Shown here in pieces: positions 85 to 1,780 of a stretch of 52,729 nucleotides of DNA. The DNA comes from Terriglobia bacterium (GTDB lineage Bacteria; Acidobacteriota; Terriglobia; Acidiferrales; UBA7541). The position numbers were made by a program, and so were the translations under genes. Under the pieces are notes generated by a model. It did no database searches. It saw only the letters and a program-made list of their open reading frames with translations, and was not told the origin of the DNA. Position 1 is the first letter of the stretch; each line of letters starts with the position of its first letter. The stretch lies in assembly GCA_020073705.1 (NCBI GenBank), contig JAIQES010000029.1:1-52729 (forward strand), given 5' to 3'.

Positions 85-317
85 GCGTCGTTCTCCGGTG
101 GCGTGATGCCCAGGTCTTGACACCACTCCTTGAGACTTTTCCGCTCGAAGTAGCCCGCGACGATGGCGCGGAAGGTTTTTTCGTCGACCTGCTCGGCAAC
201 TCTGTAGTGGATGAAGTGCGCCGTGATGGCGTCGTTGATGGATTGAATCACGGCGGCGCTGGCCTTCTCGATGGCCGATGGTTCGTTTCTGCTCGGTGTG
301 CAGGGGTTCGCGGTCAT
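81..317 (-). CDS. small hypothetical protein of integrase cassette (78 aa)
   Basis: I do not recognise a family. The protein is 78 aa, mildly acidic overall and predicted mostly helical, with no signal peptide or membrane segment. The ATG start is preceded by a strong ribosome site (AGGAGG followed by CTAGGAA). It overlaps the upstream ORF's stop by 4 nt (ATGA), and its own stop overlaps the next start. The tight chain of overlaps with a tyrosine recombinase at the head argues that it is an expressed gene of an integrated element. Function is unknown. Confidence 0.55.
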   Translation of the reverse strand: MTANPCTPSRNEPSAIEKASAAVIQSINDAITAHFIHYRVAEQVDEKTFRAIVAGYFERKSLKEWCQDLGITPPENDA

Positions 318-553
318 TTCCTAGCCTCCTTTGGTCGTGGCGATTGTGATTTCGGCCTCATCTTTTTCCTTTCGAGTTGACTGCGCTGTTTGGACACCGC
401 CATGTGCAGGCGGTGAAGCTCGTCGAGCACGGCGGTTAGGTCGAGGTGTTCTTGCTTGGTGAGTCTGCGGTTCTTTCTCCAGTCCTCGTCTACGGTGTCG
501 ATGGCGAGTACGCGGAGTCTCATGATGCTGCTGTCGATGCTTTCGGGGTTCAT
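314..553 (-). CDS. small basic-tailed hypothetical protein (79 aa)
   Basis: The chosen ATG at 553 has a perfect AGGAGG about six bases upstream and overlaps the upstream stop by 4 nt (ATGA). A longer reading of the same frame, to 718, would run back through the Cys-rich ORF and is unlikely. The 79-aa product has a helical, charged middle (about residues 15-55) and a strongly basic, Lys/Arg/Pro-rich C-terminal tail (about 60-79) that could bind nucleic acid. No family was recognised. Its place in the coupled integrase cassette is the main support. Confidence 0.55.
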   Translation of the reverse strand: MNPESIDSSIMRLRVLAIDTVDEDWRKNRRLTKQEHLDLTAVLDELHRLHMAVSKQRSQLERKKMRPKSQSPRPKEARK

Positions 554-744
554 TTCTGTTCCTCCTTTTGTCTGCGTCGATGGCAGGGGCACATGCAGCG
601 TGCTCTTAGATCGGAATGGCCGAGTGGCCGGGTTCCGATGTGCGCCGTCCCTGGGCAGAACTTGTGCATGCGGTCCGGCTTCGTCCAGAGTTCGGTCTGG
701 CAGAAGGTGAGGATGCACTCGATCTGTCTTTCTTCGGTGTCCAT
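550..744 (-). CDS. small Cys-rich protein (64 aa) downstream of integrase
   Basis: The ATG start shares its A with the integrase TGA stop (TGATG), and the stop overlaps the next ATG (ATGA), so it is probably translated by coupling. The 64-aa product contains cysteines near residues 10, 15 and 30 and a C-terminal CMCPCH cluster followed by a basic tail, which suggests a small zinc-binding, nucleic-acid-interacting protein. This is inference from spacing; no named family was recognised. The longer frame starting at 771 would sit inside the integrase gene. Confidence 0.5.
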   Translation of the reverse strand: MDTEERQIECILTFCQTELWTKPDRMHKFCPGTAHIGTRPLGHSDLRARCMCPCHRRRQKEEQK

Positions 745-1547
745 CACTGCACCGGGCCTTTCGGCTTCCACAGCTGATCGAGCACTTGCTTAATCATCTG
801 TGGGTCGCGGTGTTCGAGATATTGCGCGGTGGACGCTAGGCTGCGGTGTCCGAGCATGTGCTCTACGACGCGCAGGTCCTTCGACACTTCGTAGAGGGAG
901 ACTGCGAGCGTTCTTCGCAGGTCGTGAATCCATAGTCCGGGGTTGACGCCTGATTTCTTTTTGAGCGTGTTCCACGCGCTACAGAATCCCTTCTTTGATA
1001 TGGTCTTGCCCCTGACGATGGCGTACAGCGGTTTCTCCGGTTCGTCGGCGGGGATGGCTTCGATGGTTGCCGTGAGTTCGTCGGTGAGTGGGAGCCTTGC
1101 GAGCGTTCCGGTTTTCTGCTGGTAGAGGTTGAGGGTTTTGTTTTCGCGGTCGTAGTGGATGGGCGCGGCTCGCAGGCAGTCCGACGCTCTGAGTCCGGCG
1201 TGAGCGGCGAGCAGGAGCAACACGCGCATCCATGGGGAAGCGTGTTCCAGTACTCGGGTGAGTTCGTCGGGCGTGGCGATGATTGTCCGCGGGCCGGGCT
1301 TGCGGAGATGCGGGAGTTTGATGTCGCCGCGCTTCAGGAAGCGGAGAAGTTGGCGAAGCGTGGCAGCGTAGTTGTAGGCGGTCATCGGCTTGGTGCGGTT
1401 CTTCCAGTCGAGCACGATGGCTCCGGCGTGGGTCTCGTTGAGTTGGATTGGGCGCAGCGGGCCTGCGATCTTTTCGAGTGCGCGGGCTACGATGCGCTGC
1501 TGCTGTCGTGGTGCGGCCTCGGACCAAGCGTTGCAGAGGTCCTTCAC
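744..1547 (-). CDS. tyrosine recombinase (phage-type integrase), core and catalytic part
   Basis: This is site-specific recombinase activity for integration or excision of a mobile element. All catalytic residues are visible, counting from the GTG at 1547: Arg120 (GLRASD), Lys145, His208 and Arg211 (HDLRRT), His234 (LGHRSL) and the nucleophile Tyr243 (AQYLEH). Residues 1-75 look like a SAM-like core-binding domain. Length is 267 aa, shorter than the usual 350-400 aa, because the N-terminal arm-binding domain is in a separate overlapping ORF. The GTG start overlaps that ORF's TGA by 4 nt. A -1 slip at an A7 run upstream would fuse the two into one normal integrase. Four small coupled ORFs follow. 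Confidence 0.9.
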   Translation of the reverse strand: MKDLCNAWSEAAPRQQQRIVARALEKIAGPLRPIQLNETHAGAIVLDWKNRTKPMTAYNYAATLRQLLRFLKRGDIKLPHLRKPGPRTIIATPDELTRVLEHASPWMRVLLLLAAHAGLRASDCLRAAPIHYDRENKTLNLYQQKTGTLARLPLTDELTATIEAIPADEPEKPLYAIVRGKTISKKGFCSAWNTLKKKSGVNPGLWIHDLRRTLAVSLYEVSKDLRVVEHMLGHRSLASTAQYLEHRDPQMIKQVLDQLWKPKGPVQ

Positions 1548-1702
1548 TGTTGGGCCGAGGCGGGGGCTTTTTTTCGGTCGCGCCTCTTGAGTTGCGCGGT
1601 CTGGTAGGCGCGGGCTTCGGCGGCGGTTTTGAAGGCGCGGCGGTGGCGCTTGCCGTGCTCGTCTCGCCAGTCGGCATAGAACTTGCCGTATTTCTTCTCC
1701 AT
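1544..1702 (-). CDS. integrase N-terminal arm-binding (AP2-like) domain, separate ORF
   Basis: The ORF encodes about 52 aa from ATG 1702 (MEKKYGKFYADWRDE, then a basic stretch and TAAEARAYQ), typical of the AP2-like arm-type DNA-binding domain that begins many tyrosine integrases. The frame extends further up to a TTG at 1780, but the extra residues do not look like this domain. It ends in TGA inside the GTG start of the catalytic ORF. Seven A residues (1568-1574, read on the minus strand) lie in frame as CGA AAA AAA, a classic -1 slippery arrangement. The ORF could be a natural split gene, a programmed frameshift or a homopolymer indel. Confidence 0.65.
   Translation of the reverse strand: MEKKYGKFYADWRDEHGKRHRRAFKTAAEARAYQTAQLKRRDRKKAPASAQQ
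1568..1574 (-). other. A7 slippery run at the integrase frame break
   Basis: On the coding strand the run reads CG A AAA AAA GCC with the arm-binding frame, which fits the X XXY YYZ form for -1 slippage. After a one-base backward shift the frame stays open through to the catalytic ORF with no stop in between. It sits about 22 bases before the TGA that ends the first ORF. A downstream stimulatory structure was not established. Confidence 0.5.
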
Positions 1703-1780
1703 TTGGACACCGATGGACACCGGACGCTTGATTGGGCCGTGGATGTTGGGGTTTGTCGTTCTTCCGAATCTTGCGATCAA

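Follow-up and report, generated by a model that had tools for sequence, protein, structure and literature searches.

Here we describe an integrase gene that, judging from its sequence and those of its relatives, very probably belongs to a small site-specific integrative element and is decoded by programmed -1 ribosomal frameshifting. The gene lies near one end of a 52,729-nt contig of a Terriglobia bacterium (contig C54 of a 78-contig genome that is 97% complete; hereafter the window, meaning this whole stretch), where the element is truncated at base 1. A conserved frame offset between the two domains of the integrase, a slip site at their junction and a downstream hairpin all support the programmed-shift reading that a first-pass annotation of the window had put forward.

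The gene occupies two reading frames on the minus strand. ORF1 (1544-1702; 52 aa, from ATG at 1702-1700 to TGA at 1546-1544) encodes an AP2-like, putative arm-binding N-terminal domain (N-domain), and the tyrosine recombinase domain is carried by the -1 frame, which is taken here to begin at the slip site and runs as far as its stop at 744 (744-1574). The listed start of the catalytic ORF (ORF2) is a GTG at 1547-1545, and the coordinates bear out the earlier observation that the two ORFs overlap by GTGA. The slippery heptamer A AAA AAA (1568-1574, a T7 on the plus strand) does stand in the phase proposed for a -1 shift, frame 0 reading CGA AAA AAA GCC, and the -1 frame is open into the catalytic ORF as had been claimed, its 382 open codons extending through the catalytic domain. 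The slip site was also rightly placed ahead of the stop; its distance, given as 22 bases, is 21 nt when counted from the last A.

Ribosomes would initiate at the ATG at 1702, translate the N-domain and mostly terminate at the TGA at 1546, which would yield a short DNA-binding protein; at A AAA AAA (1574-1568), which is followed after 6 nt by a hairpin, a fraction would slip back by one base and would read on in the catalytic frame to produce the full integrase. Both that slippage occurs and at what rate we infer.

Domains encoded by the two frames

When searched against Pfam, the catalytic ORF of the window matched PF00589 (Phage_integrase) at 3.8e-22, above the curated cut-off; this was its only match at E <= 1, and the DDE transposase domain of an IS1/IS3-type insertion sequence was not found at that threshold. 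In PDB, the catalytic profile (A5) matched the XerC-like 4a8e (4.5e-22) and lambda Int 1z1b (2.2e-12). Across an alignment of eight proteins, K154, H217, R220, H243 and Y252 are invariant, and the first catalytic Arg, located by eye, is present in seven (L015 deviates); we take these positions to be the catalytic residues of tyrosine recombinases (R, K, H-x-x-R, H/W, Y).

ORF1 of the window scored 63.8 bits against the N-domain profile. Among the 21 members of this profile, 17 matched phrog_11531 (integrase) at E <= 0.1, seven matched Pfam AP2 at E <= 1 (best 0.0019) and one matched Arm-DNA-bind_4 weakly (0.74). The best E-value of the N-domain profile against PDB was 0.41, and an AF2 model of the N-domain from a single sequence is helical (pLDDT 70, pTM 0.35), neither being usable as evidence of its fold.

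Relatives and the frame offset

Relatives were sought in the genus, family and order, in the phylum (396 genomes), in the family by profile (89 genomes) and in f4, a second family of the same class (250 and 398 genomes), together with an N-domain profile search of the class (349 genomes). The nearest are two loci in a genome of the same genus (G002), 46-48% identical. In all of the first eight loci (the window, L006, L011 and L015-L019), frame 0 encodes the N-domain and frame -1 the catalytic domain, and an A7 lies at the junction. A scan of 28 loci found an N-domain match in 20, every one with the same relative frame; the eight without were L091, L098, L103, L026, L104, L067, L068 and L069.

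For the census, 42 chosen loci were read with two profiles in six frames, and the 40 with both domains were counted; these come from 35 genomes, 11 of the loci in the window's family and 29 in f4. Excluded for want of an N-domain were L148, which is cut at a contig end, and L091. The second G296 copy (L027) and the N-domain matches without a catalytic match (L125, L126, L130, L132 and L133) were left out, the weak catalytic loci L070-L088 stood outside the census, and L025 was read by eye only. The catalytic frame is -1 relative to the N-domain in 39 of the 40 loci. The exception, L149, scores as frame 0; by eye, its catalytic domain starts in -1 after the N-domain and then meets a second break. 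To the question raised at the outset, whether homologs would all have a single uninterrupted frame, the census gave the opposite answer, with no in-frame fusion of both domains at any of the 40 loci. N-domain scores reach at least 43 bits in 33 loci and are weak (5.6-23.3 bits) in L099, L101, L102, L153, L155, L156 and L158; the extrapolated start is other than ATG or GTG in L099, L100, L153, L155 and L156.

Farther afield, a search of genome contigs for named relatives returned one distant locus (L014), and tblastn with the catalytic parts of the window and L093 gave no match in phages and plasmids. Weak similarity to the N-domain of L093 turned up in three records of Arthrobacter phages and in three plasmids of Pseudochrobactrum. 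In viral contigs, single-protein queries and profile A2 found no relative, and profile A1 found 31 distant loci.

Conservation and turnover of the slip site

Of the 40 census loci, 33 have an in-phase slippery heptamer at the junction. It comes in seven kinds, most of them non-homopolymer: A AAA AAA (14) and C CCA AAA (11) are the commonest, followed by C CCA AAC (3), G GGA AAA (2) and A AAA AAC, A AAC CCT and C CCA AAT (1 each). The automatic list, drawn at nt 105-160 of the N-domain ORF, comprises 32 loci (13 with A AAA AAA); the A7 of L131, which the filter skipped owing to a later stop, was added. Restricting the count to the 33 loci whose N-domain score is strong leaves 30 with an in-phase heptamer. 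Its occurrence at this position is above chance: unfiltered in-phase XXXYYYZ occurs at nt 105-160 in 32 of 39 loci, at nt 60-105 in none and at nt 160-220 in one, and the other two phases at nt 105-160 give 16 and 3 of 39, the 16 including overlapping readings of A7 runs.

No canonical in-phase heptamer was found in seven loci (L021, L028, L100, L153, L101, L102 and L158). The first four of these have in common CCT CA at about the same codon, which is perhaps a weaker alternative slip site, possibly through single-tRNA slippage on C CCU. Upstream of the slip site, no consistent Shine-Dalgarno-like stimulator was seen by eye.

On a tree of 36 catalytic domains (L131, L149, L124 and L102 omitted), the heptamer label requires 12 changes, compared with a shuffled mean of 20.3 and a value as low in 0 of 200 shuffles. 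A7 needs four changes on this tree, three of them forced by well-supported branches, and C CCA AAA needs five, with four so forced. The heptamer turns over on the tree, and the -1 offset stays constant.

A hairpin downstream of the slip site

In the window, the candidate stimulatory hairpin (1516-1561, minus strand) has a 7-bp stem, GCCTCGG (1561-1555) with CCGAGGC (1522-1516), and a 32-nt loop. It is present in the minimum-energy fold, and elsewhere in its own gene, as far as scored, no stem start matches it in strength (fraction 0.0). When stems were scanned by start position over the 32 loci, the strongest 5-nt interval lay 5-9 nt past the heptamer, which is the canonical spacing (mean -14.5 kcal/mol), with a stem of -10 kcal/mol or better in 27 loci; the other intervals have such stems in 0-22 of the 32, the highest counts being 22 at 20-24 nt, 17 at 100-104 nt and 16 at 0-4 nt. 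For starts 3-7 nt past the heptamer, an interval picked after the peak at 5-9 nt had been seen, the mean is -14.4 versus -7.5 in own-gene windows, the stem ranks in the strongest tenth of its own gene in 25 of 32 loci and in the strongest twentieth in 16, and stems as strong arose in 0 of 20,000 random draws. A stem of at least 6 bp starts at 3-7 nt in 24 of the 32.

Covariation was scored on nine of the eleven C CCA AAA loci (L140 and L023 were omitted for length), with a stem defined from the same nine sequences. Its cells are paired in 83%, compared with 31-59% when the stem is slid; both sides have changed in five of six pairs, a count reached by 21 of 500 shuffles, and the covariation score of 0.565 (shuffled, 0.156) was reached in 0 of 500. 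Total folding energy downstream is only slightly low over the 32 loci (mean z -0.62 versus control -0.20) and is ordinary in the window (z -0.02). An Rfam search returned no frameshift element, with one snoRNA match at chance level.

Frame of selection and start codons

In the pair L096 and L105, 84% identical over 495 nt, the codon position at which differences fall changes along the gene. Before the slip site, differences at frame-0 positions 1, 2 and 3 number 2, 3 and 11, concentrating at position 3; they are mixed over the first 120 nt past it (5, 10, 11), and further down (1, 12, 2; 2, 15, 4; 9, 35, 16) they concentrate at position 2, the third position of the -1 frame. The pattern moves to -1 even though frame 0 remains open to nt 495. 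Amino-acid identity just past the slip site does not tell the two frames apart (-1, 0.256; frame 0, 0.257; L066, L149 and L024 omitted).

Between the slip site and the conserved core, 33 of 39 loci have no ATG, GTG or TTG in the catalytic frame; taken from the preceding stop to the core, 28 of 39 have none. The short products range from 49 to 289 aa (median 96, 39 loci), and because of this range their tails look free.

Alternative explanations

The homopolymer at the junction naturally raises the question of slippage by RNA polymerase rather than by the ribosome, in which an A would be added or dropped at the A7 so that a share of the messages carries a continuous frame. RNA polymerase slippage is known on A7 runs, and A7 stands at the junction in 14 of the 40 loci. 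Nineteen loci, however, have in-phase heptamers without an A7 run (C CCA AAA and C CCA AAC among them) and keep the same -1 offset, although L093 and L146 do carry an A6 as well, and a conserved hairpin at 5-9 nt better suits a ribosomal signal; we give transcript slippage a slim chance. That the integrase is instead made in two pieces, the catalytic ORF being translated alone by re-initiation or coupling at the GTG at 1547, we regard as slimmer still. In the window this GTG overlaps the ORF1 stop, and six of 39 loci do have some ATG, GTG or TTG between the slip site and the core, yet the start-free stretch in 33 of 39 means that re-initiation, which the first-pass annotation had entertained, offers no shared route, and the 28 loci without any start after the preceding stop speak against it further. 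Since the frame-0 stop varies from codon 49 to codon 289, stop-start coupling is not conserved, whereas the heptamer and hairpin are.

Least probable of all is a sequencing error or a decayed pseudogene, even though the slippery run of the window is a homopolymer, its genome is a draft of 78 contigs, and decay is visible in some relatives: L066 has two internal stops, L149 its second frame break, and the catalytic match of L131 spans only 52 profile positions. The same offset recurs in 39 of 40 loci from 35 genomes, among them the single-contig assemblies G676, G695, G588 and G843, and the catalytic K, H, R, H and Y are intact in all eight aligned proteins. A homopolymer indel, the other reading initially allowed for, is very unlikely because the corresponding position in relatives is occupied by non-homopolymer heptamers, and their offset is unchanged. 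Distant relatives retain the slip signal, and the break therefore looks like built-in control and not like a sequencing error.

Comparison with known systems

Programmed -1 frameshifting is well known in DDE transposases. In the OrfA/OrfAB arrangement of IS1 and IS3, a short N-terminal DNA-binding product is accompanied by a rare -1 fusion to the catalytic domain, made at an A-rich slip site. The gene considered here would be alike in pairing a short N-terminal product with a -1 fusion to a catalytic domain at an A-rich slip site; it differs in that this domain is a tyrosine recombinase (PF00589) and not a DDE transposase, and in that direct att-like repeats bound the three complete elements. 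In dnaX and phage tail assembly genes, an X XXY YYZ heptamer is combined with a downstream hairpin. That combination is found here too, in another class of gene and, by eye, with no consistent Shine-Dalgarno-like stimulator. With lambda-type, phage and ICE tyrosine integrases our gene shares the domain order and the catalytic fold family, and heptamer repeats near both ends of the element resemble arm-type sites; to our knowledge, the known integrases of these kinds that have an arm-binding N-domain are each one uninterrupted gene. Indeed, the integrase of phage TripleJ, whose N-domain is weakly similar (E 0.06), is a single uninterrupted 1137-nt CDS, whereas that of the window is split between two frames.

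For IS2, an A6G slippage window and OrfAB are described in PMC3219604. Our search of the open literature, with most subscription journals outside its scope, found no report of programmed frameshifting as the normal route to a tyrosine integrase in the portions of articles available (including PMC3174227, PMC7335449, PMC9030533, PMC3188489, PMC2627896, PMC13313380 and PMC3219604), which is weak evidence of absence; the -1 shift described in PMC9030533, itself putative, concerns a terminase gene and not the integrase gene. If the frameshifting reading is true, annotation is likely to record such genes as pseudogenes or as pairs of ORFs and to overlook such elements, and control of site-specific recombination would be tied to ribosome behaviour in a way that is directly testable. 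Because one offset is kept while heptamer and hairpin sequences turn over, these loci would also form a natural series on what makes a bacterial shift signal work.

The element and its candidate arm sites

In relatives, flanking att repeats with the integrase gene beside one end mark a site-specific integrative element. Three complete ones measure 4824, 4706 and 4439 bp between direct att-like repeats. The repeat is exact in L162 (16 bp) and L164 (24 bp, 5.5e-6); that of L161 is weak alone (18 columns, 94%, E 1.8) and was picked as lying just outside the stretch shared by L161 and L162. The copies in G002:C34 and G051 lie in matching stretches of chromosome. In the window, two further small ORFs of the element follow on the minus strand. 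The one at 314-718 is partly similar to L161:8254-8619 (tblastx, window 374-544 with L161 8398-8568, 40%) and has no Pfam match above cut-off; the other, at 81-317 (78 aa), is similar to L161:8616-8867 (window 87-275 with L161 8637-8825, 41%) and has no Pfam match. The element in L161 also carries, at L161:9010-9447, a protein for DNA modification that is Mom-like (phrog_1384, 5.4e-39; the match to Pfam Mom, 0.00026, is below cut-off).

Directly upstream of the ORF1 start, the window carries a tandem GGTGTCC (1705-1721, minus strand; copies at 1705-1711 and 1715-1721) as candidate arm-type sites. Counted inward from the left end, all three complete relatives have GGTGTCC/GGTGACA-like heptamers at 57-58 and 68-69 bp, upstream of the N-domain start, and four or five near the right end; a degenerate pattern, chosen after the heptamers had been seen, has a density of 13-18 per kb in the ends and of 2-4 per kb in the interior. 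GGTGTCC itself is found 13 times in the window (5.07 expected; 0 of 100 shuffles), with six copies inside the first 1.73 kb, and is not enriched in exact form over the whole 20-kb stretch of L161 (3 found, 1.8 expected). Of the 40 loci, 16 have an exact tandem 7-mer upstream of the N-domain: 8 of the 11 belonging to the window's family and 8 of the 29 in f4. The end heptamers are plausibly arm-type sites of the elements.

By analogy with IS1 and IS3, we infer that the short protein may limit or direct recombination and may bind the GGTGTCC copies next to its start codon. More broadly, we offer as a tentative proposal, with somewhat less than even confidence, that these elements balance integration and excision by frameshifting: the common short product would be a free arm-binding domain occupying att-arm heptamers, two of which lie directly before its own start, and serving as a built-in repressor or directionality factor, and the rare shifted product would be the recombinase, the OrfA/OrfAB logic having arisen separately in tyrosine recombinases.

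Among 27 loci scanned for tRNA genes near the integrase start, two have one upstream, a tRNA-Arg in L024 (1206-1282, plus strand, ~85 nt) and a tRNA-Met in L120 (1367-1442, minus strand, ~60 nt), and some members therefore probably integrate at tRNA genes. Elsewhere the N-domain is fused in frame to host genes: to myo-inositol-1-phosphate synthase (PF07994) in two genomes (L125:1501-3045, plus strand, 1e-102; L126:118-1632, minus strand, 3.8e-103) and to MoaC in another (L130:1003-1623, minus strand, 5.9e-49). Each fusion could be what is left of an element that inserted at the 5' end of a host gene, or a case of domain reuse. Additionally, L133:1501-1605 is a lone N-domain stub of 34 aa followed by a stop, beside sequence resembling the left end of the element. 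The contig on which this stub lies (G002:C34) also carries a complete element ~5 kb away, and the stub is a possible element remnant.
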